Source: Aspidapion aeneum (taxonomy: Eukaryota > Arthropoda > Insecta > Coleoptera > Brentidae). From it: a stretch of 64,000 nucleotides of DNA. The position numbers and the translations under genes were made by a program. Within the stretch, counting starts at the first letter, position 1. The number at the start of each line of letters is the position of its first letter. Under the pieces are notes generated by a model. It did no database searches. It was not told the origin of the DNA and worked only from the letters and a program-made list of their open reading frames with translations. Location of the stretch: assembly GCA_963576565.1 (NCBI GenBank), contig OY755044.1, forward strand, positions 47,759,134 through 47,823,133, written 5' to 3'. Shown here piece after piece: positions 2,231-61,770 of the stretch.

Positions 2231-4498
2231 CGTTTAACTTTATTGCAAATAAAAATTCAGTTTCTCGAAAACGGAACCAGCAACAAATTATTTGTTAACA
2301 CATATTGGTAGTACTCTTTAGGTACTACAAGTAACTGAAAAAAAGCTGTAACCCTCTTGTTAGTTTTTGAGATACAGGGTGAAAACTATATGAAACACAC
2401 TTTATAGCAAATAAAAATTCAATTTCTCGAAAACGGAAGCAGCAACAAATTATTTGTTAACACGTATTGGTAGTACTCTTTAGGTACTATAAGTAACTGA
2501 AAAAAATCTGTGGCCCTCTTGTTTGTTTTTGCGTTACAGAGTGAAAACTATATGAAACACGTTGAACTTTATAGCAAATAAAAATTCAATTTCTCGAAAA
2601 CGGAAGCAGCAACAAATTATTTGTTAACACATATTGGTAGTACTCTTTAGGTACTACAAGTAACTGAAAAAAATCTGTGGCCCTCTTGTTAGTTCTTGAG
2701 TTCCAGGGTGAAAACTATATGAAACACGTTGAACTTTATAGCGAATAAAAATTCAATTTCTCGAAAACAGAAGCAGCGACAAATTATTTGTTAACACGTA
2801 TTGGTAGTACTCTTTAGGTACTACAAGTAACTGAAAAAAGCTGTGGCCCTCTTGTTAGTTTTTGAGATACAGGGTGAAAACTATATGAAACACGTTGAAC
2901 TTTATAGCAAATAAAAATTCAATTTCTCGAAAACGGAAGCAGCAACAAATTATTTGTTAACATATGTTGATAGTACTCTTTAGGTACTATAAGTAACTGA
3001 AAAAATCTGTGGCCCTCTTGTTTGTTTTTGAGTTACAGAGTGAAAACTATATGAAACACGTTGAACTTTATAGCAAATAAAAATTCAATTTCTCGAAAAC
3101 GGAAGCAGCAACAAATTATTTGTTAACACGTATTGGTAGTACTCTTTAGGTACTACAAGTAACTGAAAAAAATCTGTGGCCCTCTTGTTAGTTTTTGAGA
3201 TACAGGGTGAAAACTATATGAAACACGTTTAACTTTATTGCAAATAAAAATTCAATTTCTCGAAAACGGAAGCAGCAACAAATTATTTGTTAACACGTAT
3301 TGGTAGTACTCTTTAGGTACTACAAGCAACTGAAAAAAATCTGTGGCCCTCTTGTTAGATTTTGAGATACAGGGTGAAAACTATATGAAACACGTTGAAC
3401 TTTATAGCAAATAAAAATTCAATTTCTCGAAAACGGAAGCAGCAACAAATTATTTGTTAACATATGTTGATAGTACTCTTTAGATACTATAAGTCACTAA
3501 AAAAATCTGTGGCCCTCTTGTTAGATTTTGAGTTCCAGGGTGGAAACTATATGAAACACGTTGAACTTTATAGCAAATAAAAATTCAATTTCTCGAAAAC
3601 GGAAGCAGCAACAAATTATTTGTTAACACGTATTGGTAGTACTCTTTAGGTACTACAAGTAACTGAAAAAAATCTGTGGCCCTCTTGTTAGTTTTTGAGA
3701 TACAGGGTGAAAACTATATGAAACACGTTTAACTTTATTGCAAATAAAAATTCAATTTCTCGAAAACGGAAGCAGCAACAAATTATTTGTTAACACGTAT
3801 TGGTAGTACTCTTTAGGTACTACAAGCAACTGAAAAAAATCTGTGGCCCTCTTGTTAGATTTTGAGATACAGGGTGAAAACTATATGAAACACGTTGAAC
3901 TTTATAGCAAATAAAAATTCAATTTCTCGAAAACGGAAGCAGCAACAAATTATTTGTTAACATATGTTGATAGTACTCTTTAGATACTATAAGTCACTAA
4001 AAAAATCTGTGGCCCTCTTGTTAGATTTTGAGTTCTAGGGTGGAAACTATATGAAACACGTTGAACTTTATAGCAAATAAAAATTCAATTTCTCGAAAAC
4101 GGAAGCAGCGACAAATTTTCCATTTACATACACGTTTAGTGCTATTTGAGCGCTAGGAAGTGTATAAACAACTCTGTGGCCCTCCAGTTGGGTTTAGAAA
4201 TACAGTACAAAATATGTTATTTTTATTATTTTTTTAATCGTACGATTGGAATTAAATAATTTGTTTTACACGATGCAATGAAAGACTCTTAGCAACAAAT
4301 TATGCTTTTTGTTTGAGATTAATACCTTTAAAGACTACCGAGATACAAGGTGGCCCCTCAACTTTACTCGGCGCACAGTGGTCTTTGACTCAATTTTTTA
4401 ATATTTTTGCTTAATAACGCTCTCAGACGCTTTAAATAGCGATAACAAATTCGAACGGCCTTTTATAAGGGTACTACAAGTGTTTCTACCTTAATATT

Positions 4499-4792
4499 TT
4501 ACAAACACAACTTTTTCTGGGTATTACGCCACTAGTAAGGAAAAATTACTTTAAAAAATTATAAAAAACCACTGCGTTTCTCCTAGAAAAATAAAAATCA
4601 CTAATTTGTCAGTGGCTTTCTATAAAAATAAATAGTTGCCTAGTAAAACCTAAACCACTTATCTTTTAATTGAATTTGAATACGCTACGTTTCGATTGCC
4701 AATCTACAATCGTTTTCAAGCTTTTTATTTATATTTTGTCTCAAAAAGTTGTGTTTGTAAAATGAATCCGCCACAAACATATAGATTTTATT
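4499..4792 (-). mobile_element. Nested small element with ~18 bp inverted repeats and 12 bp target duplication
   Basis: The right arm of the giant foldback is interrupted relative to its left arm. The 12 bp word taccttaatatt occurs on both sides (4487-4498 and 4793-4804) but once at the equivalent place in the left arm (near 595-606), a clear target duplication. Inside, ttacaaacacaac (4499 on) is inverted at 4743-4760, and ~32 bases lie outside the right inverted copy. It carries a hammerhead-like module (4684-4720, minus). The overall plan resembles the insert at 1849-2230, with different primary sequence. Confidence 0.72.
4684..4720 (-). other. Hammerhead-like motif, second copy
   Basis: On the minus strand it reads CTTGAAAACG, a hairpin gattg...caatc, then GAAACGTAGCG. 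The stem-loop is intact; the first box is degenerate. It sits inside the nested insert at 4499-4792. Confidence 0.35.
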
Positions 4793-5430
4793 TACCTTAA
4801 TATTATCAAGAATAACAAAAATATTAACTAAAAACAGTTTTTTTCAAAAAAAAAAAGAAAATTATAAGTGTTTTGGGATTCTTTAATATTGGTTGCACAT
4901 CCCCATCCCGAGCAACAAATTATGGCGTTTAAATCATCCTCGTATCGCCTTTCAGTCCAGAGTTATGAGGTGGCCCCTCAGCTTTACAGTAAAGTCACAG
5001 GGGTCGCGATTTCTCGTTAACGGCTGCAGCAACAAATTTAATTCTTCGGTAACAAATTAGCAACAAATTAGCACCAAATCCTGGCATATGAAATTTGGTG
5101 GCCCCTTATAGTGGTCCCCCCAGCTTTACTTACGTTTTTTCTGAATCTTTTTAAGCCAAAAAGGTACTCTTGTTAATATGCGCTAAAGTAAGTCGTTTTC
5201 GAGATATTTCCGTTTTTAGTGTTCGATGCCGTAACGGAATACTGAAATTATTTTGAATGACTATTTCTCTAGAGTGTTTTACACTGGCAAAGTGTCATAG
5301 CAATGCCCAGTTTTCTACTGACTATTGTGCTCAAAGCTTTATTCAAGTTTGTTGCTTTTCGGCAAAATCGATTTCTAATTTTTAAATTCACCACCCTGTA
5401 TCTCTGAAGCGGAGCAATTTCGGACTAAGG

Positions 5431-12813: not shown

Positions 12814-14322
12814 TTAATTTGGCAAGAGGCACAGTTTTACAACTGGCCGCTTATAAACACCGGTAACCGTTTGTACCGTCGCAACACGCACCTGACCGTC
12901 CCCGCCGGGATGCAGTTCGATGACCCGACCGACCGGCCATTTCAAAGGCGATTGAATGTGATCACTTGTGATGATAACCAAATCATTTAATTTGATATTT
13001 GGGGACGAATCAGCCCATTTGTGTCGCTGTTGTAGCGTATGCAAATACTCTATAGAATACCGTTTCCAAAAATCATTATGTAGTTTTTGGATTAGTTGCC
13101 ATCTCGAGAGCCGATTTAGGGGAACCTCGGACAAATCTGACTCAGGAATTTCTGAATTAAGGGGTTCAAGTGTCAAAAAATGCCCAGGGGTAAGAGGTTG
13201 AAGATCGTGTGGGTCTGAAGAGGCAGGAGATAAAGGGCGACTATTAAGTACGGCTTCTATGCGACAGGTAAGGGTGGACATCTCCATGATAGACAACTTC
13301 TGGTCGCCGACAACTCGTACAAAGTGAGTTTTAAAACTTTTGACGCCAGCTTCTGCCAGGCCCTTGAAATGTGGACTGAGAGGAGGTCCCAGATGCCAAC
13401 GAATAGAAAGTCTGGTGGCAGCACTTCTTGCGTAATCCAGTAATTGGTTACGAAACCCTATAAAATTACTGCCTTGATCTGACCAGCATTGCGTCACGCT
13501 TCCGCGTCTGGAAATGAATCGATGGAATGCACCTACGAACCCTTCGGTGGACAGTTCCATGGTTAATTCCAAATGCACGCAATGTGTGGCCGTACAGACA
13601 AACACACAGACATACGATTTGAAAGCTTTACAACCACGGTAACGATGAGGAATCACAAAGAAAGGTCCACAAAAGTCGATAGCTACACTCGAAAAAGGTT
13701 TTAGTTGATTGATTCGATGAGCGGACTCGATAAGAAGAGTAGTTAAACGATGGTCACTCGAAAGTAAGACGGGGTGTTTTGCAGAATAAGACAAAAGGTC
13801 AGATTTTTGTAATCTGCCACCGACTCTAATGATATTATTCTCATCAAGAAAAGGTGAAAGTTTTCGCAAAGGTTTCGGTATTGGTTTATCCTTAGATAAC
13901 GCGGAAAAAGGCTCAGAAAAACAAGAACCTTGCACGCGTTTGATAAGAAGGTGTAACGCACTTTGCATCTCACCGGTGGTAGGAAAAACAATATTCTCAA
14001 AAATAACTTTTTGGTCCGGCGGCTTAGTGGGTTTTTGATAGGAATGGTTTTGAAAAAGGTTAACTATTCGAAGGACATAACAAATGATACGTTGAATTTT
14101 TGATATAGAGGAATATTTGATAAGAAGCTGATCTAAGAAGTTGACAACAGACTTTTGGCTTTTCCTCCAGATTAATATCTCCGAAATCAATCGGCATTTT
14201 TGGTTTATGAAAATCGGGCCATTCGTTTTCGGGAGACCACAAAAACGACGGTGCGTTCCACCACATGTCATGTGACATGAGCTGTGAAGGGGTGGCCCCT
14301 CGTGACGCAATATCGGCTGCAT
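12814..14322 (-). CDS. BEL/Pao pol, integrase part and C-terminal domain
   Basis: This open frame holds the C-terminal half of pol. Seen in order: a segment following RNase H, RLQKSDLLSYSAKHPVLL, AHRIN, the catalytic core with VAIDFCGPF (first Asp), WSDQGSNF (second Asp) and AEAGVKSFK (Glu), then SRPLSPASSDP and a BEL-type tail with SRWQLIQKLHNDFWKRYS and a final KWPVGRVIELHPG...VTGVYKRP...LCLLP block. The N-terminal zinc-binding region, expected in the family between AHRIN and the core (about 60 residues with a CxxC pair), is absent: AHRINQ runs straight into LKPFSSVAIDF. The frame therefore encodes a DDE core without its HHCC module. The first ~45 residues are out of frame with the true protein; the frame is joined to RNase H only after a shift near 14165. 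Confidence 0.88.
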   Translation of the reverse strand: MQPILRHEGPPLHSSCHMTCGGTHRRFCGLPKTNGPIFINQKCRLISEILIWRKSQKSVVNFLDQLLIKYSSISKIQRIICYVLRIVNLFQNHSYQKPTKPPDQKVIFENIVFPTTGEMQSALHLLIKRVQGSCFSEPFSALSKDKPIPKPLRKLSPFLDENNIIRVGGRLQKSDLLSYSAKHPVLLSSDHRLTTLLIESAHRINQLKPFSSVAIDFCGPFFVIPHRYRGCKAFKSYVCVFVCTATHCVHLELTMELSTEGFVGAFHRFISRRGSVTQCWSDQGSNFIGFRNQLLDYARSAATRLSIRWHLGPPLSPHFKGLAEAGVKSFKTHFVRVVGDQKLSIMEMSTLTCRIEAVLNSRPLSPASSDPHDLQPLTPGHFLTLEPLNSEIPESDLSEVPLNRLSRWQLIQKLHNDFWKRYSIEYLHTLQQRHKWADSSPNIKLNDLVIITSDHIQSPLKWPVGRVIELHPGGDGQVRVATVQTVTGVYKRPVVKLCLLPN

Positions 14323-14347
14323 TCAAAGCAGAAGGAATGTGCGCCAC
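14060..14347 (-). pseudogene. BEL/Pao pol linker between RNase H and integrase, out of frame
   Basis: This frame supplies HIPSALNAADIASRGATP, the usual end of the BEL RNase H domain, followed by LWSPENEWP. It is out of frame with the reverse transcriptase part (break near 14345) and with the integrase part (break near 14165). Each break needs only a single-base change to explain it. Confidence 0.8.
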
Positions 14348-15693
14348 GAGTTTGAGGGAATGATTTCTTGGATTCTACTGACTCGATTTCCAACAAAGGT
14401 TTTCCAGCGATTAGGAGGGGATGAAAGCCAGTGCAATACGACTTGCGAATCGCAGAAAGTAACGATATTTGTAAAAGTTATTTTTCCTTCATAGCTAGAT
14501 AAAACGAAGTCAATTAATTCGCTTAAAAGAAATGCGCCTAGGAGTTCTAGCCTAGCCAAAGTTTGTGACTTTATAGGCGCGACCCTAGATTTTGCAGATA
14601 TGAGGGAAACAGATATATTGTTTTCCTCTTCTACACGAAAATATACGACGCCTGCGTAGCCTCGAATTGAAGCGTCACAGAAGCCGATGATTTGACAGGT
14701 ATTGGTTTTTGACAGTTTGATTTGTCGGGGTAATTGAAAATTGGAAAGAAGCGGGAATTCAGAACGAAGTTTGTTCCAAGAGTCGATGATAGAAGAATCT
14801 GGTTCTTCGTCCCAGCCTATTTTCGATATCCACAACTGTTGCAAAATAAATTTTGCTTGTAGCAATAAGGGACAAAGAAAACCTAAGGGATCGAAGATTG
14901 TCCCTATGATAGATAAAATAGAACGTTTGGTTGGGGGTTTGTCCTTCATTCGGCATTGATAAGAAAAAATGTCGTTTTTTGGATGCCATTGAAGTCCTAA
15001 AACTTTGATAAAGTGGGGTTCCTCCTTGTCGAAAGAGAGAGGCATTTGACGATCGGACTCTGGCAATGTTGTCAATAACTCAGGACAATTGCTTGCCCAT
15101 TTTTTAAGTTCAAATCCTCCCGACTTCAACAAATCATTGAGTTCTGTTTGAAGGGAGAGAGCTTCAGAAAGCGAAGGGCTAGTTCCCAAGATATCGTCGA
15201 TATAGATTGACGTTTTTAGAACAGTACTAGCCATAGGAAAACGTTCCTTTTCTCTCTCTGCCAGCTCATTTAAGGTACGCATGGCTAGAAAAGGTGAGCA
15301 TGTCATGCCAAAGGTGACAGTAGAAAGTTCCCACACTGAAAGTGGGTCCTGTGGAGAAAACCTCCACAATATCCTTTGATAAGGACGGTGATAAGGATTG
15401 ATAAGGACTTGACGGAACATCTGTTTGATGTCAGCAATGTAGGCAATAGGATTAAGATGAAACGTAAGGAGTAAAGAAGCAATATCCTTTTGAAGTTTCG
15501 GTCCAGATAACAATGTGTCATTGAGACTAATATTTTTTGGGGTGACTACCGAACAATCCCAGACTACCCTTAATTTTGTACTTAAGCTTTCCGGCTTTAG
15601 TACGCAATGATGTGCTAAAAAACACGACACGTCGACCTTTGGTTGACTAGATAAAACTAAACTCATATGATTAGAATCGATATAGTCTTGCAT
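14323..15693 (-). CDS. BEL/Pao pol, reverse transcriptase and RNase H
   Basis: It carries the BEL-type reverse transcriptase signature: LRVVWDCS, AYIADIKQMFRQV (palm Asp), LSTVTFGMTCSPFLA, and the YIDDIL active site. GFELKKWASN and a connection region follow, then RNase H residues in IGFCDASIRGYAG (Asp), LARLELLGAFL (Glu) and FCDSQVVLHWL (Asp). These copy element RNA into DNA and remove the RNA strand inside the particle. The frame ends at a premature stop just after NSW because of a shift near 14345. It overlaps the protease frame by ~30 bases in another phase; the join at about 15715 falls in an A-rich run. Confidence 0.93.
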   Translation of the reverse strand: MQDYIDSNHMSLVLSSQPKVDVSCFLAHHCVLKPESLSTKLRVVWDCSVVTPKNISLNDTLLSGPKLQKDIASLLLTFHLNPIAYIADIKQMFRQVLINPYHRPYQRILWRFSPQDPLSVWELSTVTFGMTCSPFLAMRTLNELAEREKERFPMASTVLKTSIYIDDILGTSPSLSEALSLQTELNDLLKSGGFELKKWASNCPELLTTLPESDRQMPLSFDKEEPHFIKVLGLQWHPKNDIFSYQCRMKDKPPTKRSILSIIGTIFDPLGFLCPLLLQAKFILQQLWISKIGWDEEPDSSIIDSWNKLRSEFPLLSNFQLPRQIKLSKTNTCQIIGFCDASIRGYAGVVYFRVEEENNISVSLISAKSRVAPIKSQTLARLELLGAFLLSELIDFVLSSYEGKITFTNIVTFCDSQVVLHWLSSPPNRWKTFVGNRVSRIQEIIPSNSWRTFLLL

Positions 15694-16538
15694 GAAACTT
15701 GAATAGGCAGTGTACAGATCTTTTTGATTAATCTATTTTCTAGAAGTAAAAATCTACGATAAGCTTGCGGATAAGTATTTCCTAGGTCAGGGTTTATTTT
15801 GTCTTTAAACGGAAGATCTACCATGAATCTACCGCTCGGTTGCCGTACTACACTAGCAGTAAAAATTGATTCTGCCTGTTTTTCTTCCTTTGATAAGATT
15901 TGTTTTTTAGGCAAATGTTCGATTTCCCAAAACCTAGGGAGAATGACCTCTATAGGAGGTGAATGACTCGTTAAAAAACAACTGGTTCGTTCCGTAAGAC
16001 TACCTACTTCGTCAACCTTTCCCATGACGACCCAGCCAAAGATAGTTTCAAGGGCTGAAGGCTGCCCTACCTGTCCAAGAACCCTGCCCTCCTTGAATAT
16101 CTGTGCGAATAGCTCACAACCAATAACCAGGTCCACAGGTCTAGATTTGAAATAAGATGGGTCGGCAAGTTTAAGGTTTTGCAAGTGTTTCCACTGATTA
16201 TCGTTCAAAGAGAATGTAGGCATATTGGAACATAGTTGTGGGACCACAATTGCTTCGAAATTAAGTAAAGGAGTGACTTGTCCTTGTGGCTTAATGTGAC
16301 ATTGAACGAGCCCTTTGGAAGTAAAAGAAGACATCTGATTTAATCCGAATATTTCAGTGGTGTAACTTCGCCTAGGAAGATTAAGACGCTGAATACACTT
16401 TTCACTGATGAATCCTGTCTGTGATCCAGAATCAAGCAGTGCCCTTACAGGTTGAAAATTTCCGCAACCGTCCATAACATCTATTATGGCGGTGCATAAA
16501 AGAAAGGTACCTGAAGGTCCTGAGGCATTTAATGACAC
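15663..16538 (-). CDS. BEL/Pao aspartic protease region of pol
   Basis: The retropepsin active site is clear in PVRALLDSGSQTGFISEKC (DSG). The segment continues through LVIGCELFAQIF, IFGWVVMGKV and RFWEIEHLPKK, typical of BEL/Pao between protease and reverse transcriptase. The indicated start is a GTG; the frame is open upstream to about 16580 (YTPPVNNLHV), where it meets the right-hand edge of the 633 bp insert. In an intact element this part would be read from gag. It matures the gag and pol proteins in the particle. Confidence 0.9.
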   Translation of the reverse strand: MSLNASGPSGTFLLCTAIIDVMDGCGNFQPVRALLDSGSQTGFISEKCIQRLNLPRRSYTTEIFGLNQMSSFTSKGLVQCHIKPQGQVTPLLNFEAIVVPQLCSNMPTFSLNDNQWKHLQNLKLADPSYFKSRPVDLVIGCELFAQIFKEGRVLGQVGQPSALETIFGWVVMGKVDEVGSLTERTSCFLTSHSPPIEVILPRFWEIEHLPKKQILSKEEKQAESIFTASVVRQPSGRFMVDLPFKDKINPDLGNTYPQAYRRFLLLENRLIKKICTLPIQVSCKTISILII

Positions 16539-16572
16539 ATGAAGATTATTGACAGGTGGTGTGTAAATAATT

Positions 16573-17205
16573 TCTATCTATGAATTGTAAGGGTAGGGAG
16601 CGCGGGTTTCATTCATCTGGCAAATCCTATGTTTTGAGTTTTAACACTCAGAGAGGGGATGATAATTAATCGTAAAATATTTAAATATTAGAAAAGCAAA
16701 GAAAACAAGCTCGACTTACCAAATGTATTTGGAGATCCAATGGTAGGAGAGTCACGCTTGTTCCATGAAAAGCACTTCAATGTCCAAACACGCATGTGTT
16801 TTATAACGCAAAAATGTAAATTAATTATTATAATTGATTAGGTTGTACCGCACGGCACACAAATTGTCGCCTTCTCGCAGCAGCGAATTAGTCTCTTGTC
16901 CGATGCTTCGTGCTCTCTTTCTCAGCAGAACCGCCGCGCATCTCGCTCGCGTCTCCAGTGGTGGCGTGTGTTCCTGCGTGAGGAAATCAGGAAAAGCGTA
17001 GGAAAGGAGTTAAATGGGGGGTTCATGTAATGGATGAAAAGGAGAGCAGCATCGAGCTTGTATAAAATTAGTAATATATGAAGTAAATAATTTTTAATCA
17101 TTATTAAAATAAAATCGCGTATTTTCTACTTGCATAGCGACGTAATGAAAATAATACAACAAAAAAAAATAAAAAATGTTAGTTCTAAAATATTCCCAAA
17201 GTATT
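16573..17205 (-). mobile_element. 633 bp insert inside the BEL element, promoter/first-exon-like
   Basis: The 7 bp word AATAATT borders it on both sides (16566-16572 and 17206-17212), and it separates gag from protease where these normally run on, so it is an insertion. No terminal inverted repeat was seen. Base use differs from the element: 16860-17000 is GC- and CpG-rich. On the minus strand, downstream of this, an ATG at 16795 opens MRVWTLKCF and continues through KRDSPTIGSPNTF to a consensus splice donor G|GTAAGT (donor at 16719). That layout looks like a host promoter plus first exon. Alternatively it is an unknown non-autonomous element. Confidence 0.55.
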
Positions 17206-17782
17206 AATAATTATATACAAAAGGGCGAAAACGGACCAGTGTGTGAATGACAGGACTAGTATCTTGGCTTCCAGACTCTTGATTAGTTTCTAAGATATGA
17301 GTTAAAGTGTAGTGCCTTTTACTATTGCAAGTCCTGCATGAATATTTTGATTTGCACGTATCTACATCATGCAAGGGATGAAAACACGCTAGACATAATT
17401 TTTTCTGTTTGACGAAAGATAGGCGATCGATAGGTGAGAGATCAAGAAATGTTTGCCATTTCGAAAGCACGTGACCTTGATTACACCGGAAACATTTTAT
17501 TCCCGTACTTGAATTAGTTGAGGTGCCAGCCAGTCCTATAAAAGGCGAATTGGATGATTTATAGGTAGGCTTTTGCCCAAACTGATTTCGCATAGAATTT
17601 GAATTTTGATAGGTAGGCTTTTGCCCAGACTGATTTTGCATAGAATTTGATTTTTGATATATAGGCACCTTTTTGGGTGCTGTTGATTGAGGAAGTGATT
17701 CCAAAACTTTACATCTTTTTTCTAGAAATTGAAAAAGTGACTGAAAAGTGGGAATTTCGGTATTAGTATTGGCGTGACTCAT
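17204..17782 (-). CDS. BEL/Pao gag, C-terminal zinc-knuckle part
   Basis: The frame has a repeated QKPTYQNSNSMRNQ-like linker (three imperfect 14-residue copies around residues 27-57) and then knuckle-like motifs: CFRCNQGH...W (final Cys replaced by Trp), CLACFHPLHDVDTC (CCHC) and CRTCNSKRHYTLTH. These bind nucleic acid during packaging. The in-frame sequence continues upstream of the listed Met to about 17930, where a run of seven A bases separates it from the N-terminal gag frame. It ends just inside the 633 bp insert. Confidence 0.88.
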   Translation of the reverse strand: MSHANTNTEIPTFQSLFQFLEKRCKVLESLPQSTAPKKVPIYQKSNSMQNQSGQKPTYQNSNSMRNQFGQKPTYKSSNSPFIGLAGTSTNSSTGIKCFRCNQGHVLSKWQTFLDLSPIDRLSFVKQKKLCLACFHPLHDVDTCKSKYSCRTCNSKRHYTLTHILETNQESGSQDTSPVIHTLVRFRPFVYNY

Positions 17783-17924
17783 TTCGAAATTTGAACGCGT
17801 TGGAATATCTAATTTTTCTAATAAAATGAAAAAAATAATAAAGTCCCAACTGTCAACGTCAAAGCTAAGTGATTTTAAAATTTCTAGGGATTCAGAAAAG
17901 GTGTCAATTAAATTACGTAATTCT

Positions 17925-18614
17925 TTAGCTGACTCGTTTTTTTAAGGTGGAGTTCATAATTGAGCTTAAAGCATCATTTGCGAGGTCTCGCTTGTTTTGA
18001 TATCTATTGACTAATTTGTCGTAAGCAATTTTATAATTTTGATCAGATAAGCTAATCCCTGATATCAATTTTAAAGGCTCATCCTCGAGATATGAAAATA
18101 AATATTGAAGTTTTCGAACGTTACTTAGACTTTGATTTTGATCTATAATGTTATTAAAAAGATCGAAAAAGCTTGGCCATAATTTTTTATCACCTCGGAA
18201 TATGGGAATACCTAACTCTTTGAGTTTTGGAGTTTCAGATTCGTTTTGTCGAACATATGATCCCGAAAAGGATGGGGCCTCAACCGGAAATATTTTAGAG
18301 TAAACCCCCTTACACGCATAAAAATATTTACGAGCTTCTGAAAGGATCGCATCCTGCGTTTTAAACTCCTCGTCGTCCGCGTCGTCTATCAACATAATGA
18401 CGTCATTATGCGCCAGCATGCATTTATCGAAGGTTTCATCCAAATCGGAATACCTCACTTGAAACTCGTTTCTCGCTCTTTCATCCTTTTCCGCGGTCTT
18501 TGACAACACATAACACTCGGTGATCGCAGATAAAAAACCCTTGCGTTTTTGTACGGCTTTTTTGACAGACATGATTTTACCTTTGAAATGACGAAATTGT
18601 CGGTAAATATACAA
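17925..18614 (-). CDS. BEL/Pao gag, N-terminal part (DUF1759-like)
   Basis: This is the N-terminal structural part of gag. The most likely start is the methionine at residue 15 (MSVKKAVQKRKG, about 18572) rather than the first one in the frame. IPIFRGDKKLWPSFFDLFN, LSNVRKLQYLFSYLED and YKIAYDKLVNRYQNKRDLAN are characteristic of the BEL/Pao gag domain that builds the particle. The frame is cut after STLKK by a one-base shift in an A run near 17935; the downstream gag frame continues in another phase. Confidence 0.9.
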   Translation of the reverse strand: MYIYRQFRHFKGKIMSVKKAVQKRKGFLSAITECYVLSKTAEKDERARNEFQVRYSDLDETFDKCMLAHNDVIMLIDDADDEEFKTQDAILSEARKYFYACKGVYSKIFPVEAPSFSGSYVRQNESETPKLKELGIPIFRGDKKLWPSFFDLFNNIIDQNQSLSNVRKLQYLFSYLEDEPLKLISGISLSDQNYKIAYDKLVNRYQNKRDLANDALSSIMNSTLKKRVS

Positions 18615-35034: not shown

Positions 35035-37791
35035 TTATGCATGATCAAAATATTCATCCAAATGATAGTAGGCATTATCTACAAGCATATCTTTTACTGC
35101 CTTTTTAAAATTATTAAAATCGCCTATTGCTTTTATAGCATCAGGCAGTTGGTTGTATATTTTAATGCTGCGATAAATTATTGAATTTTGTGTTAGTGTA
35201 GATTTTGGAATAGGTAACGGAATATTCATTAAATTATTTCGGGTTTGGTATCCATGTAAACTTGTGGGGTTATTTTTGTATTTTTTAAATATAATACAAA
35301 CTGTTTCCAGAATGAATAAAGATACAATTTTTTCCCTCTGGAACAGCGGCTTACAATGATGTTTTAGTTTTGTTCCACAAATGTACCGTAGACATCGTTT
35401 TTGTATTGTAAAAACTGACTTAAATAAATGTTGACAATAATTTCCAGAAAACGCAATTCCATAACGTAAGTGCGATTCAACTAAAGCAAAGTATACCTTT
35501 CTCGCCATATCAATACCAAGATCTGTGTAAGTTTTTCTCACAGCATAACCTCCGCTAGAGATTTTTTTATTTAAATTAACAATATGGTCTGTAAATTTTA
35601 GCTTGTTGTCAATGAACATGCCAAGAAATTTAATACTCTGCTTTTGTTCTATTATTTCATTTCCTAGATTCAGATTATCAAAATCCATTTTAAAACCAAG
35701 TACTTTAGTTTTATCTATATTTAGACATAAATAATTTGCGTCACACCATTTTTTAATTTTGACAATGTCTTTATGTACAATGTCCTTTAAAACTTGCAAA
35801 TCCTTGTGGTGCCATAGAATAGTGGTGTCATCCGCAAATATCGTTAAAATACCTTTAATATCTAAGAAAGTTAAATCATTAATATACAACAGAAAAAGAA
35901 TTACGCCTAAAATCGAACCCTGTGGAACTCCAGTATTTATTTCCATTGTAGAAGAAATAGACGTACCTTTCTTCACTTTTTGATAACGTCTTGTTAAATA
36001 GGATTTAAAGAAAGTTCTCGATATACCTCTAAAGCCGTAAACAGACATTTTTTTTAAAAGCAGATTATGGTTAACACAGTCAAAAGCTTTTGTAAAGTCG
36101 CAAAAAACTGCGGCTGCAACCTCTTTGTCATTGATTTTAAGGTACAGACTTTCTAAAAATGAAAAAACCGCATCATTGGTGCTTTTAGATTTTTGAAAAC
36201 CAAATTGTTTTACACTAAGGATTTTGTGTTTCTCTATAAAATCCATCATCCTCTTCTTTACCAATTTTTCAATAATTTTAGATAGCATATTGAGAAGGGA
36301 AATGGGTCTAAAATTTGATGGATCTGTAAAAGAACCTGATTTATGCAGGGGGATAACTAGTGCAGTCTTCAAGATATCTGGAAATTCCCCTTTTAAAAAA
36401 CTTCGATTTACTGAGTTTGCAAGTACTTCCAATGCCGCATCGTTTAAATTTTGAAAAATGTTTTTTGACATTTCGTCTATACCTGAGGAATTTGTTTTTA
36501 TTTCACCTATTATTCTTTTTATTTCGTTTTTATCTGTGTCAGTTAATACAAAAGTTTCATTTACATATGCATTTGATAAGTTGATCAGTGGATCACAATC
36601 TGATTTAATATTTGATGTTAAGTTTTTCCCAACAGTACAATAAAAACTATTTAGCACGTCAACAGTTATGTTTGCTTGTTGCTTTAATAAATTATTTTTA
36701 CCTCTTAAATCGTTAACAATTGACCATGCTTCCTTGCTTTTATTTTTCGCGCTTTCAATCCTGTTCCCATAATATTTCTGTTTTGCTGCCTTAATTATAT
36801 TTTTGTATATTTTATGATATACTTTAAAATAATTAAGAAAAAATTCATTGTTAATAGATTTACGAATTACATACAAAGATCGTAAGTTCTGAGAGGAAAT
36901 TTTAATACCTTTGGTTATCCAACTTTTTTTCTTCTTTCTTTTTCTCACCTTGCACAACGGAAAGCTTTCAAAAAATGTTTTTTTAACTATTGAATGAAAG
37001 TCTTCAATAGGCTTGTTAGAGTTAAAAACACATTCCCAATTTATTATACTAATTTTATCTCTAAAGTTGTTAAAATTTTTTGCCGAGAAAATTCTCTTTC
37101 GTTGTGCAGGTAATTTTTCTATTTTTTCCTGTAAAGGAAAGCTGGAAAATAATGCCTCGTGGTCAGAAAGATTATTAGGAAGCACACTACATTTTATATT
37201 GTCATGACTAAAGTTGGCACAAAAATAATCAATAGTTGTAGCAGTCTTATCTGTTATTCTGGTGGGAGATTCAACAAACATTTTTAAATCATAGGAAATC
37301 ATCAGATTCCTTAAAGCTACCATACTACCTAAATTTTCATTGTTATAATCTAAGTTAAAATCACCGGCACAAATAATTTTACTGTTATGTGGTAGTTCTA
37401 ATAACAATGATTCGAAATTTACTAAGAAACTCGTTGCATTTGCTACAGGAGGACAATATATGCATAGAATAAATATATTTTCTTTTTCACTATACATTAA
37501 AGAAAACTCAAAAACACTCTCTAAACATAAATGATTGTACCTATCTACGTTTTCTGGTTGAAAATTGGATTCTTTTTTACTTAAGATACTTGTACCACCA
37601 TTTGTTGTTCTACAAAAATTTGAAATAACATAGTACCCAGGAATGTCAAAAGGTTGCTCGGGTTCCAACCAATGTTCTGTTAATAATATTAATTCTGGAT
37701 AATTTAATTCATCAAGAAAGACTAAAAGTTCGTCAACCTTATATCTAAGAGACCGGACATTTACAGTTAAGATTCTTATATTACCTATCAC
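35035..37791 (-). CDS. LINE ORF2: endonuclease-reverse transcriptase
   Basis: This is a 918-residue frame with both expected domains. The apurinic-type endonuclease (about residues 5-220) shows ILTVNVRSL, LLTEHWL, CAGDFNLDY and NLSDHEALF. The reverse transcriptase (about 440-730) shows IPLHKSGSFTDPSNFRPISL, GFQKSKSTNDAV, VFCDFTKAFDCVNH (catalytic Asp), INTGVPQGSILG and the FADDT active site; a C-terminal region follows with KFLGMFIDNKL and HLRYGIAFSGN. It nicks target DNA and copies the element RNA from the nick. No internal stop or frame shift was noted, so it may be functional or only recently inactive. It overlaps ORF1 by four bases (37788-37791), and the first codon of the listed frame is a GTG, consistent with coupled translation. 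Confidence 0.95.
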   Translation of the reverse strand: MIGNIRILTVNVRSLRYKVDELLVFLDELNYPELILLTEHWLEPEQPFDIPGYYVISNFCRTTNGGTSILSKKESNFQPENVDRYNHLCLESVFEFSLMYSEKENIFILCIYCPPVANATSFLVNFESLLLELPHNSKIICAGDFNLDYNNENLGSMVALRNLMISYDLKMFVESPTRITDKTATTIDYFCANFSHDNIKCSVLPNNLSDHEALFSSFPLQEKIEKLPAQRKRIFSAKNFNNFRDKISIINWECVFNSNKPIEDFHSIVKKTFFESFPLCKVRKRKKKKSWITKGIKISSQNLRSLYVIRKSINNEFFLNYFKVYHKIYKNIIKAAKQKYYGNRIESAKNKSKEAWSIVNDLRGKNNLLKQQANITVDVLNSFYCTVGKNLTSNIKSDCDPLINLSNAYVNETFVLTDTDKNEIKRIIGEIKTNSSGIDEMSKNIFQNLNDAALEVLANSVNRSFLKGEFPDILKTALVIPLHKSGSFTDPSNFRPISLLNMLSKIIEKLVKKRMMDFIEKHKILSVKQFGFQKSKSTNDAVFSFLESLYLKINDKEVAAAVFCDFTKAFDCVNHNLLLKKMSVYGFRGISRTFFKSYLTRRYQKVKKGTSISSTMEINTGVPQGSILGVILFLLYINDLTFLDIKGILTIFADDTTILWHHKDLQVLKDIVHKDIVKIKKWCDANYLCLNIDKTKVLGFKMDFDNLNLGNEIIEQKQSIKFLGMFIDNKLKFTDHIVNLNKKISSGGYAVRKTYTDLGIDMARKVYFALVESHLRYGIAFSGNYCQHLFKSVFTIQKRCLRYICGTKLKHHCKPLFQREKIVSLFILETVCIIFKKYKNNPTSLHGYQTRNNLMNIPLPIPKSTLTQNSIIYRSIKIYNQLPDAIKAIGDFNNFKKAVKDMLVDNAYYHLDEYFDHA

Positions 37792-38699
37792 ACAAGAGTC
37801 GAGTTTACTTGAGTTGTTTCTAAAAAAGATACATTGCTAACAGTAGGAGAACATTGGTAAGAATTTTCTAAGTCTATGGTAACTACACATTCTGAATCAA
37901 AGTTTTGTTCTGTTAAAATTGGCTTTAAACAACTTACAGATGGTTCATCTTTAAAAGAACGCACTGCATTTCGTAGGAACACTGCCATTTTTGACAAACC
38001 TTTATTGTTTAAAAATATGCTCTTTGCCACAAAGTCAGAATATCTGAATTTGTCTTTAAGATCAACAACATTGATATTATTTGAAAACTGTCTAATATTT
38101 TTCACAAAATTTAAAATTTTATCGTTAATTAAGTGAATGTTGTTAAATTCAAAATAACCCTCCTGCTTTGTAGGTATTGTACTTATTATAAGGTTAGTGT
38201 AAAAACACTGATTTGATAATTTTGTTAATTCATTTAACCTAATATCAATACTATTCAATCCCGCCAAAACAATTACGTAATCATTAGACCCCAAACCAGA
38301 AAAACATGAACTATGCTTACAAGTTATTTCACTAAAAGATGCATTAGGTTTACATACAACCTGGATAGAATAATTGTCTGAACAGACTTTATCCAAGTGG
38401 GGATAAAGATATTTACCGAATTCATCAGTTAAAATTATAATCTTATTTCTAGCTTTTTTGATTTTCCTATTTCCTAAACTGCCTGTTTTATTTGTTATGA
38501 TCTCTTTTCTGGCTTCTGCTGATTTATCAGATTTGTATTTTTCTTCTTCTTTCTGCTTTTGAAGCTTCTGAAGTTTCTCCGCATAAATTTTGTTGTCCGC
38601 CTCTATCATTTTCAGTGCGTCCAATATTTCATCTTTTGTTGATTTCATGTCTACGAGTTGCCGTTCTAGACCACTTACAAGTCTATTATTGTCTTGCAA
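37788..38699 (-). CDS. LINE ORF1, coiled-coil and SGNH/GDSL-like region
   Basis: The frame opens with a coiled coil (ERQLVDMKSTKDEILDALK through EKLQKLQKQKEEE; heptad-like, charged) and continues into a domain with IIILTDEFGKYLYPHL, VIVLAGLNSIDIRLNEL and NINVVDLKDKF. The order resembles the SGNH/GDSL-type esterase domain in ORF1 of CR1-group LINEs; the usual GDS serine block reads TDE here, so catalysis is doubtful. ORF1 proteins bind element RNA. The coiled coil extends upstream of the listed Met to about 38835 in the same frame, where a frame shift separates it from the PHD-finger part. Confidence 0.82.
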   Translation of the reverse strand: MQDNNRLVSGLERQLVDMKSTKDEILDALKMIEADNKIYAEKLQKLQKQKEEEKYKSDKSAEARKEIITNKTGSLGNRKIKKARNKIIILTDEFGKYLYPHLDKVCSDNYSIQVVCKPNASFSEITCKHSSCFSGLGSNDYVIVLAGLNSIDIRLNELTKLSNQCFYTNLIISTIPTKQEGYFEFNNIHLINDKILNFVKNIRQFSNNINVVDLKDKFRYSDFVAKSIFLNNKGLSKMAVFLRNAVRSFKDEPSVSCLKPILTEQNFDSECVVTIDLENSYQCSPTVSNVSFLETTQVNSTLV

Positions 38700-41238: not shown

Positions 41239-41574
41239 AACCTTATTTTGAACCAATGTCATTAAAAGGTGTACAATTTTGGCAAAAATCCTCACTTTTT
41301 ACCAATCTTGAGGGGCTTTATACCGCCCCCAACCCCCCCCCCCCCCCCCCACCTGCTGCATACACTAGTGTGTTGATCAGGGCTAGAAATATTATCAAAT
41401 ATATTTATAAGCATACCTGTCAAATACTTTTTATGCAAAGGGACAGATCATGGATTAAAAAGTAGAAATTAGGAGTGAAAATTGCAGAACAGGGATAAAA
41501 GTATAAATTAGTGATAAAAAGTTACAGATCAAGGAAACAAGTGAAACAAAAAAAAATACTAAGATCTACCTCCA
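41239..41574. other. Non-coding with poly-C tract
   Basis: A C-rich run lies at about 41324-41351, the longest stretch being 18 or more C. No gene is seen. The last bases aagatctacctcca (41561-41574) are inverted just beyond the right end of the following array. Confidence 0.6.
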
Positions 41575-44500
41575 TAAACCTAGCAAGCCCACCTCAATAA
41601 AAATTTAAAAAATGTATTCCAGAATTATGTGCTTTTTATGTGCTAATTTCGTCCATTTTTTAAAATTTTTGTGCTCCTTTGGTTTCCACGGAAATTTAAA
41701 AAAATGATTGGCGTGCTAGGTTTATATAAACCTAGCAAGCCCATACAGAAATAATCAATATTTTTATAATATTTATATGCGAAAATTAAGTGCTTTTTAT
41801 GTGCTCCCGTTTGCTAAAAACAAAATTTCATTTATCAAGTTTTTAAGCTTTTTTTTTAAAAAAATGTGTGGGCTGGCTAGGTTTATATAAACCTAGCAAG
41901 CCCATACAGAAGTAATCAATATTTTTATAATATTTATATGCGAAAATTAAGTGCTTTTTATGTGCTCCCGTTTGCTAAAAACAAAATTTCATTTATCAAG
42001 TTTTTAAGCCTTTTTTTTAAAAAAATGTGTGGGCTGGCTAGGTTTATATAAACCTAGCAAGCCCATACAGAAATAATCAATATTTTTATAATATTTATAT
42101 GCGAAAATTAAGTGCTTTTTATGTGCTCCCGTTTGCTAAAAACAAAATTTCATTTATCAAGTTTTTAAGCTTTTTTTTAAAAAAAATGTGTGGGCTGGCT
42201 AGGTTTATATAAACCTAGCAAGCCCACCTCAATAAAAATAAATAAAATACATTCCAGAATTATGTGCTATTTATGTGCTAATTTCGTCCACTTTTTAAAA
42301 TTTTTGTGCTCCTTTGGTTTCCACGGAAATTTAAAAAAATGATTGACGTGCTAGCTTTATATAAAGCTAGCAAGCCAATGCAAAAATTATAAATATTTTT
42401 ATGCCCACCTCAATAAAAATTTAAAAAATTTATTCCAGAATTATGTGCTCTTTATGTGCTAATTTCGTCCACTTTTTAAAATTTTTGTGCTCCTTTGGTT
42501 TCCACGGAAATTTAAAAAAATGATTGGCGTGCTAGCTTTATATAAAGCTAGCAAGCCCATACAGAAATAATCAATATTTTTATAATATTTATATGCGAAA
42601 ATTAAGTGCTTTTTATGTGCTCCCGTTTGCTAAAAACAAAATTTCATTTATCAAGTTTTTAAGCTTTTTTTTTTAAAAAATGTGTGGGCTGGCTAGGTTT
42701 ATATAAACCTAGCAAGCCCACCTCAATAAAAATAAATAAAATACATTCCAGAATTATGTGCTATTTATGTGCTAATTTCGTCCACTTTTTAAAATTTTTG
42801 TGCTTCTTTGGTTTCCACGGAAATTTAAAAAAATGATTGACGTGCTAGCTTTATATAAAGCTAGCAAGCCCACACATTTTTTAAAAACAAAAGCTTAAAA
42901 ACTTGATAAATGAAATTTTGTTTTTAGCAAACGGAAGCACATAAAAAGCACTTAATTTTCGCATATAAATATTATACAAATATTGATTATTTCTGTATGG
43001 GCTTGCTAGGTTTATATAAACCTAGCCAGCCCACACATTTAAAAAAAAAAAAAAGCTTAAAAACTTGATAAATGAAATTTTGTTTTTAGCAAACGGGAGC
43101 ACATAAAAAGCACTTAATTTTCGCATATAAATATTATAAAAATATTGATTATTTCTGTATGGGCTTGCTAGCTTTATATAAAGCTAGCACGCCAATCATT
43201 TTATTAAATTTCCGTGGAAACCAAAGGAGCACAAAAATTTTAAAAAGTGGACGAAATTAGCACATAAAGAGCACATAATTTTGGAATAAATTTTTTAAAT
43301 TTTTATTGAGGTGGGCATAAAAATATTTATAATTTTTGCATTGGCTTGCTAGCTTTATATAAAGCTAGCACGTCAATCATTTTTTTAAATTTCCGTGGAA
43401 ACCAAAGAAGCACAAAAATTTTAAAAAGTAGACGAAATTAGCACATAAAGAGCACATAATTCTGGAATGTATTTTATTTATTTTTATTGACGTGGGCTTG
43501 CTAGGTTTATATAAACCTAGCCAGCCCACACATTTAAAAAAAAAAAGCTTAAAAACTTGATAAATGAAATTTTGTTTTTAGCAAACGGGAGCACATAAAA
43601 AGCACTTAATTTTCGCATATAAATATTATAAAAATATTGATTATTTCTGTATGGGCTTGCTAGCTTTATATAAAGCTAGCACGCCAATCATTTTTTTAAA
43701 TTTCCGTGGAAACCAAAGGAGCACAAAAATTTTTAAAAGTGGACGAAATTAGCACATAAAGAGCACATAATTCTGGAATAAATTTTTTAAATTTTTATTG
43801 AGGTGGGCATAAAAATATTTATAATTTTTGCAATGGCTTGCTAGCTTTATATAAAGCTAGCACGTCAATCATTTTTTTAAATTTCCGTGGAAACCAAAGA
43901 AGCACAAAAATTTTAAAAAGTGGACGAAATTAGCACATAAAGAGCACATAATTCTGGAATGTATTTTATTTATTTTTATTGAGGTGGGCTTGCTAGGTTT
44001 ATATAAACCTAGCCAGCCCACACATTAAAAAAAAAAAAAGCTTAAAAACTTGATAAATGAAATTTTGTTTTTAGCAAACGGGAGCACACAAAAAGCACTT
44101 AATTTTCGCATATAAATATTATAAAAATATTGATTATTTCTGTATGGGCTTGCTAGGTTTATATAAACCTAGCCAGCCCACACATTTAAAAAAAAAAGCT
44201 TAAAAACTTGATAAATGAAATTTTGTTTTTAGCAAACGGGAGCACATAAAAAGCAGTTAATTTTCGCATATAAATATTATAAAAATATTGATTATTTCTG
44301 TATGGGCTTGCTAGCTTTATATAAAGCTAGCACGCCAATCATTTTTTTAAATTTCCGTGGAAACCAAAGGAGCACAAAAATTTTAAAAAGTGGACGAAAT
44401 TAGCACATAAAGAGCACATAATTCTGGAATAAATTTTTTAAATTTTTATTGAGGTGGGCATAAAAATATTTATAATTTTTGCATTGGCTTGCTAGCTTTA

Positions 44501-45440
44501 TATAAAGCTAGCACGTCAATCATTTTTTTAAATTTTCGTGGAAACCAAAGGAGCACAAAAATTTTAAAAAGTGGACGAAATTAGCACATAAAGAGCACAT
44601 AATTCTGGAATGTATTTTATTTATTTTTATTGAGGTGGGCTTGCTAGGTTTATATAAACCTAGCCAGCCCACACATTTTTTTTAAAAAAAAGCTTAAAAA
44701 CTTGATAAATGAAATTTTGTTTTTAGCAAACGGGAGCACATAAAAAGCACTTAATTTTCGCATATAAATATTATAAAAATATTGATTATTTCTGTATGGG
44801 ATTGCTAGGTTTATATAAACCTAGCCAGCCCACACATATTTTTTAAAAAAAAGCTTAAAAACTTGATAAATGAAATTTTGTTTTTAGCAAACGGGAGCAC
44901 ATAAAAAGCACTTAATTTTCGCATATAAATATTATAAAAATATTGATTATTTCTGTATGGGCTTGCTAGCTTTATATAAAGCTAGCACGCCAATCATTTT
45001 TTTAAATTTCCGTGGAAACCAAAGGAGCACAAAAATTTTAAAAAGTGGACGAAATTAGCACATAAAGAGCACATAATTCTGGAATGTATTTTATTTATTT
45101 TTATTGAGGTGGGCTTGCTAGGTTTATATAAACCTAGCCAGCCCACACATTTTCTTAAAAAAAAAAGGTTAAAAACTTGATAAATGGAATTTTGTTTTTA
45201 GCAAACGGGAGCACATAAAAAGCACTTAATTTTCGCATATAAATATTATAAAAATATTGATTATTTCTGTATGGGCTTGCTAGCTTTATATAAAGCTAGC
45301 ACGCCAATCATTTTTTTAAATTTCCGTGGAAACCAAAGGAGCACAAAAATTTTAAAAAGTGGACGAAATTAGCACATAAAAAGCACATAATTCTGGAATA
45401 CATTTTTTAAATTTTTATTGAGGTGGGCTTGCTAGGTTTA
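41575..45440. repeat. Palindrome-punctuated MITE array (24 units)
   Basis: Units of 152, 161 and 181 bp are joined by 20 bp perfect palindromes of two forms, ctaggtttatataaacctag (12 copies) and ctagctttatataaagctag (11 copies). Full palindromes start at 41716, 41877, 42038, 42199, 42351, 42532, 42693, 42845, 43006, 43168, 43349, 43501, 43660, 43841, 43993, 44153, 44311, 44492, 44644, 44805, 44966, 45118 and 45280. Half sites close the array at 41575 and 45440. Orientation of the units reverses at about 42855. Two unit types share gtgctttttatgtgct; the 181 bp form has ~28 extra bases. Each palindrome looks like two terminal repeats sharing a central TA. Confidence 0.93.
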
Positions 45441-46429
45441 TGGAGGTCTAAGATCTTTTGATTCCTCAACAAATTGTAGGGCCTTGGGATGAAAAGTGCC
45501 ACTTTTATCCCTTGATATATACTAGAATATATACCTAATTAACTATTAATAGACTTTGTAGTAGGGTGAATATGTGGAAAGTGACGGATTTTGATGTGAC
45601 CTACACAAAAACATGTTAAAACATTTTTTTTGATACAAAACTAATTTTATTTCTATAGTTCTATTAAATAACTAACAAGCAAGTTCATCTTTGGAAGATT
45701 ATAGAAAATATTTCCTTTAGATAACAGAGGTTTTATGTAACAATCATCATTAACCTGGAGTGTCACTATTAGAATTTTACTATATTTTAATTAAATTATG
45801 TTCTTATAAATATTTATTGGAGTAATTTCTTAGTAAACATTAAAAAACAACCTTTAGTTATATAAATAGTAAAAACCAGAATTGTTTTAAAGTTACTTGT
45901 TTATAAATATTCAAATTTCAAATTTGTCACCAAAAATTGCATCAGTTACCTGTGCCTTCAGATTTTTTATCCATTTGGCATTATTGGATCATTCTTGACC
46001 TTCAGTTGCCAAGTGAAAAAGAGCTCTGTGATTCGGAAAACGCGCTAATGGTTTAATTCGATGTCACACGTCTAAGACAGTGGGTGTGTCCTTTAACCGA
46101 TCCATACTCGCGTGTGTAACCTTCAGTTTGATTAGTAACCTGGTAAGTTTTTAAAAGGTAGAACAACAAAAAACAATTTAAAAAATGGTGAAACATAATT
46201 ACAATAGGATACACTTTTTGAGTTTTCTTGTTTATTAGACTCAATTTTAGTAGTATTAATAATATCTGACAAAACGTGACAAAATCGTCAGTTACCTGTG
46301 CATCAGTTACCTGATAGAATACTTACAGGTTACTGACCTGCTCTACAAGTAACTGACTCGTTTTTTACAAGCTTTTATTTAGCTTCACATGTTCTGTCTA
46401 TCTAACTAACTATCTAACTATCAAATCTT
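45441..46429. other. Non-coding with recurring CAGTTACCTG words
   Basis: gaggtctaagatct (45444-45457) is the inverse of the left flank of the array. cagttacctg or its inverse occurs at 45943, 46289, 46304 and 46326. No gene is seen. Confidence 0.5.
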
Positions 46430-59770: not shown

Positions 59771-60164
59771 GCAATTGTTGTAATGAAAATCGTAAATTGT
59801 ATTGTTAACAGAACACTACGCCTACCAAATTTTAAATTTCGAATTAATTCGTGTGACGCTAGCCACTAATAATAATTTAAAGACGGAAAAGCAGGAGTGT
59901 GAATCACGTACGTTTTAAATATATCTGTACTGCTAAGGCGTATTAAAACCATAATGTGGAAAATGACTGCTACAAGCGTTCCGTTCTAATTGGATTTGGA
60001 ATAACATTTGAAAAGGACTGCTTTCAAATGAGTTTGGCAATTTGTCAATGCCCTGTGATTTAACGTTGTCAAAATTGAAGTTAATTCTTATTTTCATTTA
60101 AGGGGGCAAACTTCGCCCGAAAACTTACCATCTGACAACACTGATATCCCATTTTTAGGCCGAA
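59771..60164. other. Non-coding
   Basis: No element or gene is supported. Confidence 0.3.
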
Positions 60165-60995
60165 TCTTTGGCTCTGGAACGAAATAGCGATATACAAAAT
60201 AGCGAGTATTAAATTAGCGGTACCGAAATAGCGACAATCAAAATAACGATTTAATAAAAGGACGACTATCAAAATAGCGATGTAACAAAATGGCGATTTA
60301 ACAAAATAGCGATTGTATCAAAATAGCGATGTAACAAAATAGTGACTATCAAAATAGCGATGTAACAAAATAGCGACTATCCAAATAGCGATGTAACAAA
60401 ATAGCGATTATCAAAATAGCGAATATCAAAATAGCGATATTTTGGTTCGGTTTTGGCATATAGTTCGACAAAGGGGTTTCTTTCTATCAATTTTTTTCAA
60501 AAAAAAACTTCCCTGACTTCTTTCTCGGGATCCTAGTGGGTGTGAATCTGAACCGAACCGAACCGAACCAGCATATTTAAAACAAAAACTCTCCAGACTT
60601 CTTTTGAACCGAAACAAACTGAACCGAATTTGGTTCAGTTTGTTTCGGTTTGGTGCGATTCGGTTCAGATTCACACCCTCTAGGATCCTGGAAAAGAAGT
60701 CAGGGAAGTTTTTTTTTTGAAAAAATTTGTTAGAAAGGTTCGGTTTGGATTGGTTCGGATCGATTCGGTTTGGTTTGATTCGGTATTTTGATACATCGCT
60801 ATTTTGATTGTCGCTATTTTGATTGTCGCTATTTTTATACATCGCTATTTTGATTGTCGCTATTTTGATACATCGCTATTTTGATATATCGCTGTTTTGT
60901 TATAAACGCTATTTTGATAGTCGCTGTTTCATTACATCGCTATTTTGACAGTCGCTATTTTGTACATCGCTATTTCGTTCCAGAGCCCGAATCTT
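60165..60995. mobile_element. Foldback element built from a 'aaaatagcgat' minisatellite
   Basis: The ends gaatctttggctctggaacg and cgttccagagcccgaatctt are inverted. The left arm is a run of ~15 bp units (aaaatagcgatgtaac, aaaatagcgactatc; 60180-60440) and the right arm holds its inverse (60790-60975). The inner part is also inverted: ctgacttcttt...ggatcctag and ctaggatcctgg...gaagtcag. A (GAACC)n run lies at 60549-60572. The minus-strand 138-codon frame at 60426-60842 comes from the repeat. Confidence 0.88.
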
Positions 60996-61770
60996 TATCC
61001 TAATAGAAATAGAAAATTAGAAAGCGGAATGCGTCGAAATTTTGCGAGGTGGTTTTTTAAAGCATTTTTAACAAACGTATCTTGGCAGTAATTCGTCACT
61101 AATTCATCTTATTTAAAAAATTTTAAAAAAGTTATCGCTAAAACCCAAGAAATATTTTAAAACAATGTTTGGCATTTTAGTAGCCTAGTTGTGTTATAGA
61201 AAACTGTAGCGAAATTCTTTCGTTTTTTATATTTTTAAATATACAAAAGAAAATCAAAATTCTAACAAGGTACGTTTGACAATGTTAAAAAAGTCTTTTA
61301 TATGAACAGAAAAAATGTTTTAATTAATTTTTTATAGACGAAATCTATTAGACTTTGTAAAAGCGTAGTCAATTTTATATTTTCTGAAGTATAAATCAGA
61401 CAAGAGCCATCGACCTCCTGACTGAAGCGCCACCCTCATATAACGGGGGCGAGCCAATTCGATTAAGAAAATTTAATTAAAATCATGTGACCCGGATTTT
61501 CAGATTATTTTCAGTTACTTTAAACAAATAAAATGTTCTTTAATATAACTTAAATGCATATAAGTAAGTATTTAGAGACATACAATTTTTTCTATTTACA
61601 AAAATTTGTTTGAACCTACCAAACAAAATCAGGGGATTACGAACCGATTCATAAGATAGTTTGTGATAATAGTAATTTACCTAATTACTGCGGAAGAGGC
61701 ACTAAACACACGCGTTAGGTATGTACGTACAATATTTTTTTGTACGTGGTTGTGGAAACAAAAATAAAGC
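60996..61770. other. Non-coding
   Basis: No element or gene is supported. Confidence 0.3.

Follow-up and report, generated by a model that had tools for sequence, protein, structure and literature searches.

A palindrome-jointed tandem array in the beetle Aspidapion aeneum is very probably a foldback transposon insertion

How can a tandem array contain 23 perfect palindromes in two forms, which differ by a pair of compensated base changes, and not a single palindrome that mixes the two? The array lies in a window of 64,000 nucleotides of the Aspidapion aeneum genome (contig OY755044.1, positions 47,759,134 to 47,823,133 of the forward strand), and window coordinates below count from its first letter. 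The original prediction, made from the sequence alone, read the array as TA-flanked MITEs fused end to end and proposed that the two ends of each unit evolved in pairs, or that gene conversion or a cutting and joining enzyme kept the palindromes. We conclude that the array is very probably one insertion of a non-autonomous foldback transposon, with its palindromes copied along with whole units.

The array as an element

Recounting the window gave the 24 units and 23 exact 20-bp palindromes in two forms that had been described. The palindromes, CTAG[G/C]TTTATATAAA[C/G]CTAG, join the units between 41716 and 45299; all are exact over 20 bp and extend outward to 22 or 24 bp of exact match. Twelve are of the G form, 11 of the C form and none is mixed. 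Their centres are spaced at 152, 158-162 or 181 bp. Two of the three predicted spacing classes, 152 and 181, were found, but the third, given as 161, is really a spread of 158-162, traced by unit alignment to a T/A run of varying length in the A units. There are three kinds of unit: A, of 158-162 bp, B, of 152 bp, and B', which is a B lengthened at its left end to 181 bp. As predicted, the two ends of a unit are inverted copies of each other (20 of 24 bases in A, 18 of 24 in B' and 15 of 24 in B), and the array inverts around 42855, where eight forward units give way to 16 reversed ones.

The predicted limits of the array, 41575 to 45440, were close, but the real ends lie just outside them. 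The whole array forms an element of 3880 bp, 41568-45447, whose ends are perfect inverted repeats, ACCTCCATAAACCTAGC, and whose target duplication, CTAAGATCT, is exact over 9 bp; an origin in an element with inverted ends, as first suggested, agrees with the perfect inverted termini that bound it. The left boundary reads CTAAGATCT-ACCTCCATAAACCTAGCAAGCCC and the right one GGGCTTGCTAGGTTTATGGAGGT-CTAAGATCT. Such perfect 23-bp inverted ends inside exact 9-bp direct repeats point to a single transposition of the 3880-bp element. Inside it there is no open frame of at least 120 residues. Its features are as follows.

41559-41567, plus strand: left 9-bp target-site duplication CTAAGATCT, identical to 45448-45456
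41568-41590, plus strand: left terminus ACCTCCATAAACCTAGCAAGCCC, its first 17 bases occurring exactly 457 times in the genome
41568-42854, plus strand: left arm of eight forward units, in the order B A A A B B' A B by unit alignment
41716-45299, no strand: stretch with the 23 exact inter-unit palindromes, 12 of G form and 11 of C form
41716-41735, no strand: the only arm joint in the window that breaks the form rule described below, a G form after a B unit
42845-42864, no strand: C-form palindrome at the strand switch, the foldback centre, with the right end of a B unit on its left and the reversed right end of an A unit on its right
42855-45447, minus strand: right arm of 16 reversed units, the outermost, unit 24, being closest to unit 1
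45425-45447, minus strand: right terminus GGGCTTGCTAGGTTTATGGAGGT, exact reverse complement of the left terminus
45448-45456, plus strand: right 9-bp target-site duplication CTAAGATCT, matching the left copy

The repeats begin 6 bp from the end of the element, and terminal motifs make up the palindrome at every joint between them. Bases 7-17 of each terminus, ATAAACCTAGC, occur twice, head to head, in every G-form palindrome, and the C form is the same pair with one base changed. The internal joints lack ACCTCC, the sequence beside the real cut.

The window holds other repeated elements. A second foldback element at 60170-60987, with ends GGCTCTGGAACGAAATAGCG, has 15-bp tandem repeats in its arms and an exact 9-bp target duplication, CGAATCTTT, at 60161-60169 and 60988-60996. 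A larger inverted structure at about 269-5130 is bounded by inverted ends AGTAAAGCTGGGGGG, with no clear target duplication seen; its tandem repeats, of ~167 bp, run one way at 985-1440 and the other way at 1449-4117. On the minus strand there are pieces of a BEL/Pao-type retrotransposon at 12814-18614 (DUF5641, Peptidase_A17, RVT_1 and DUF1759) and, at 35035-37836, a 933-residue LINE-type open frame that encodes an endonuclease and a reverse transcriptase domain.

Two palindrome forms and their inheritance

The palindrome is far more numerous in the genome than chance would allow: exact CTAGNTTTATATAAANCTAG occurs 3097 times in 1.286 Gb, against 0 for a reversed, uncomplemented control. The exact terminus ACCTCCATAAASCTAGC occurs 457 times (229 and 228 by strand), its control 0 times. 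All of the first 100 termini listed carry the G-form base; the C-form base, common within the arms, was seen in 0 of these 100 with a search pattern that allowed both. Beyond such counts, the genome-scale tests used 66 loci, many of them overlapping, of which 30 were chosen for a mixed palindrome and six more lie at such places.

Reading each unit on its own strand, we found that the form of a palindrome follows the unit before it. Among matched arm joints, all 123 that follow an A unit had the G form, and 110 of the 117 that follow a B or B' unit had the C form, in a sample of seven unselected pieces and 36 loci mostly selected for mixed palindromes, from which identical stretches had been removed and in which joints of more than four mismatches escaped the count. 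The seven exceptions are all G forms after B, one of them the first joint in the window. As form follows the preceding unit, a palindrome is inherited whole with that unit and the 23 are not independent; the 23 matched palindromes are a few ancestral joints copied many times. A palindrome copied as one piece would keep its arms matched with no correction, and the two forms would then mark two kinds of unit, while unequal exchange of whole units would lengthen and shorten the arms.

Longer blocks are also shared between elements. Two other loci, L056 and L047, repeat the order of the window's first six units, with 0-9 substitutions per unit. The left flanks of the three look unrelated, which indicates that the block moved as a block.

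The two forms could serve as natural tags, a matched palindrome marking inheritance as a unit and a mixed one a joint of different palindromes. With hundreds of copies, a single assembly could then show how foldback arms grew.

Strand switches and mixed palindromes

The claim that not one palindrome is mixed is true of the window array, but the genome has 94 exact mixed palindromes (50 G..G and 44 C..C), against 3097 of any form. Mixed arms in other copies had been named in the original prediction as a finding that would count against it.

Mixed palindromes gather where the strand switches. In unselected loci they made up one of five switch joints and none of 79 arm joints. Among loci picked because they hold a mixed palindrome, 22 of the 26 classified switch joints were mixed, with two matched and two other, and the 176 arm joints comprised six mixed, 161 matched and nine other. 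Over all retrieved loci, mostly picked for mixed palindromes, this gives 23 of 31 switch joints and 6 of 255 arm joints, counts that include several copies of single insertions; 26 further joints had no class, seven of them mixed. When the loci were collapsed by hand to likely independent elements, with L030 placed by its unit cores, 11 of 16 classified mixed joints fell at a switch, against a share of switches of 5 in 84 among unselected joints (binomial 1.1e-10).

At some switches the joint is as the form rule predicts. A B end meeting a reversed A end gives C..C (L022, L026, L042, L047 and L056), and an A end meeting a reversed B end gives G..G (L044 and L052). In the window switch a B end also meets an A end, yet the forms match: the reversed A end has the C form, with AAGCCC where CAGCCC is usual. 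Against the rule, 16 of the 22 mixed switch joints in the selected loci lie between two B ends, where the forms ought to match; one of the two must then be the less common B end with the G form. Most mixed palindromes have the look of two halves, each from a different palindrome, set head to head, and the strand switches seem to be where such halves are joined.

A palindrome reads alike in both directions and so offers homology for inverted exchange, by which a direct array could acquire foldback arms. Recombination of two palindrome copies in inverted orientation would yield a strand switch, with a mixed palindrome wherever the copies differed. In four of the seven unselected strand switches a single exact palindrome separates the opposed units; in two others the gap contains two palindromes plus an unrecognised stretch, and in the last (L018) 3.5 kb of other sequence. 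Since 75 of 82 same-strand pairs in the unselected loci are also separated by a palindrome, its position at the switches is weak evidence. That the palindromes are built-in inversion joints, pairs of terminal motifs which recombine or are cut by transposase and rejoined inverted, is a possibility that we hold only tentatively. If they are, they would provide a direct route from tandem array to foldback element, and the mixed palindromes would be scars of these events.

The more specific proposal that a transposase cuts and rejoins the palindromes as paired internal ends, producing strand switches and perhaps new units, seems unlikely to us. The build of the G-form palindrome, with terminal bases 7-17 twice head to head, and the four single-palindrome switches speak for it. 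However, the other three switches do not, a palindrome at the joint says little when most same-strand neighbours have one too, and the ACCTCC beside the real cut is missing from the internal joints. In the window, moreover, the change of unit end falls past the palindrome, in the AGCCCA common to both unit ends. Ordinary recombination through the palindrome makes the same prediction.

Could the arms instead be kept matched by correction, through hairpin mismatch repair of a mixed palindrome or arm-to-arm gene conversion? The absence of any mixed or broken palindrome among the 23 in the window and of mixed joints among the 79 unselected arm joints speaks for it, as does the compensated pair of changes between the two forms, whose intermediate must once have been resolved or replaced. 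Nevertheless the 94 mixed palindromes persist, and correction alone does not predict a form set by unit type, as it was in 233 of 240 matched arm joints. Nor do the variant counts favour special conservation of the palindromes, an idea that we set aside. In seven loci, single-unit variants occupied 10 of 1420 palindrome cells (0.70%) and 71 of 9794 cells in the rest of the units (0.72%); a recognisable palindrome was required at both ends of a unit, which favours intact ones and makes the equality conservative. In the window alone the counts were 2 of 440 in palindromes and 21 of 3103 outside, both palindrome variants lying in the strand-switch unit. Apart from that unit, window palindromes have 0 variants against about 3 expected, a result with a chance of about 0.04 at the outside rate of 0.68% and a weak hint of constraint that was not repeated in the wider sample. 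We therefore regard correction as distinctly improbable.

Inheritance of whole units leaves no need for the paired evolution, gene conversion or special enzyme originally invoked, as the form is set by the preceding unit and the palindromes vary as much as their surroundings. Perfect compensated palindromes in a tandem array need not imply selection or repair.

Mobility of the element and its relatives

Other insertions were sought through the termini, of which the first 100 of 457, covering contigs C1 and C2 and the start of C3, were listed. Among these 100, neighbouring ends less than 16 kb apart pointed inward in 28 of 31 cases, with two tandem and one outward, and the inward pairs span 618 to 14444 bp. 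Seven loci, L016-L022, cover all the palindrome places among the matches listed, the first ones on contig C1. Three elements have both ends within them, and all three are flanked by exact 9-bp repeats of different sequence: GCTGAACTG (L017), GAATAATTA (L018/L019) and CTGGATTTC (L022). In all, an exact 9-bp duplication flanks the element in 6 of 16 two-ended rows, and L018/L019, which extends across two loci, is a seventh. These seven elements, each with a duplication of differing sequence, are those of the window, L017, L018/L019, L022, L030, L041 and L057.

The remaining 10 of the 16 two-ended rows have no exact 9-bp duplication. Eight of them (L028, L029, L032, L034, L035, L043, L045 and L049) share a similar T-rich flank and, judged by eye, appear to be copies of one insertion. 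This flank is common to the short members L028, L032, L033, L035, L045, L049, L050, L055 and L058 and is found reversed in L029, L034 and L043; these members look like a single insertion that another repeat carried along as it multiplied. In L026 (724-2304) the 9-bp flanks are reverse complements of each other, with no direct repeat, possibly through an exchange between two elements or an inversion. L047 has no 9-bp repeat either. In L030 (897-2883) the left end and the 9-bp duplication TACATAAAA occur twice in a row, ~310 bases apart, followed by the remaining element.

Lone units lacking the outer six bases were sought in the fetched loci. Of the 466 exact half-motifs there, with L063-L066 excluded, palindromes account for 400 and termini for 42; the other 24 are by eye mostly indel-damaged palindromes, (AT)n runs and truncations. 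(AT)n runs adjoin some half-motifs in L036, L039, L040 and L046, as if the central TATA of the palindrome had expanded.

The inverted-copy ends of the units and the TATA at the centre of each joint speak for TA-flanked MITEs fused end to end, with one TA shared by each pair. We find that origin very hard to sustain. A MITE of the Tc1/mariner type duplicates TA, whereas the 9-bp duplication here flanks the array as a whole. A whole-genome search for lone units with both full termini returned 0 exact elements at inner gaps of 105-135 bp, a range that fits B (gap 130) and not A (about 139) or B' (159). No inward pair among the first 100 of the 457 ends is shorter than 618 bp, and we saw no TA-flanked solo unit among the 24 odd half-motifs of the fetched loci. 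A misassembled array is scarcely credible: tandem and inverted repeats are easily misjoined, and our analysis drew on the assembly alone, but two differing flanks bear an exact 9-bp duplication and other loci of the same build exist.

The preferred reading, a foldback transposon, is consistent with the long inverted arms of tandem repeats in the window and other loci, and with defined termini and exact 9-bp target duplications in seven elements. The element is probably of Mutator type. Mutator-like (MULE) elements make duplications of 8-10 bp, mostly 9 bp, and the 9 bp of the seven elements fits, though it is not specific to this superfamily. We infer that a Mutator-type transposase encoded elsewhere would cut at the ACCTCC ends and move the whole block.

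The genome has 66 MULE-domain matches; on C1 and C2, 0 of 26 lay within 245 kb of a terminus, counting exact termini only. A coding middle domain was looked for and set aside, with no Pfam match from 8 of the 21 open frames listed for L018 and 2 of the 27 for L021. A 14.4-kb pair of ends on C1 was also set aside, as 8 kb of its interior (L066) contain a LINE-type reverse transcriptase that we read as a nested insertion. The same locus has an open frame of 189 residues at 4854-5420 with a weak match, below the cut-off, to a fungal-virus capsid family (E 0.0016).

The original prediction knew of no named system with this form, but in the parts of the reports available to us foldback transposons have such a build (PMC4079207, PMC3169594). 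Among titles and the starts of abstracts, a search that is no proof of absence, we found no foldback element with palindromic joints between its repeats.

Galileo, a foldback-like element of the P superfamily (PMC3688188, PMC4168063), resembles the window element in its long arms, which in some copies carry tandem repeats, and the available text describes one copy in D. willistoni with direct tandem repeats in its arms (PMC4168063). It differs in its P-type transposase and in its duplications, 7 or 8 bp in D. willistoni (PMC4168063); the 7-8 bp of the P superfamily contrast with 9 bp in all seven exact cases here. Tm1, a Mutator/Foldback family of root-knot nematodes, is as far as the available text goes similar to the window element, with composite inverted arms of tandem repeats and duplications of 8-10 bp, mostly 9 bp, in 45 of 53 elements with both terminal motifs (PMC3169594). 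Its repeats, in contrast, are of ~14 bp and its outermost 7-bp motifs asymmetric, and it has a member that encodes a MULE-like transposase (PMC3169594).

Nearest in build, from the available account, is Tetris, a foldback transposon of Drosophila virilis (PMC4079207). Like the window element it is non-autonomous; no transposase was found for it and a Mutator type has been proposed (PMC4079207). Its target duplications are of 8-10 bp, compared with 9 bp here, and a 37-bp stretch is common to its repeats and its outer terminal domain, as the repeats here carry the terminal motif (PMC4079207). Unlike the window element, Tetris has a middle domain and, ahead of its repeats, an outer flanking domain that reaches 866 bp (PMC4079207). 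In the available text on Tetris, Tm1 and Galileo, palindromic joints between repeats are not described; the word 'palindrom' has 0 occurrences in the Tetris text (PMC4079207) and 0 matches in the available text on the Galileo sites (PMC3688188). In both elements the repeats have been linked to transposase binding: the Tetris authors propose extra binding sites within the repeats (PMC4079207), and for Galileo such sites inside the arm repeats were shown by a binding assay (PMC3688188). By analogy with these two elements, the palindromes of the A. aeneum array would probably serve as extra transposase-binding sites.
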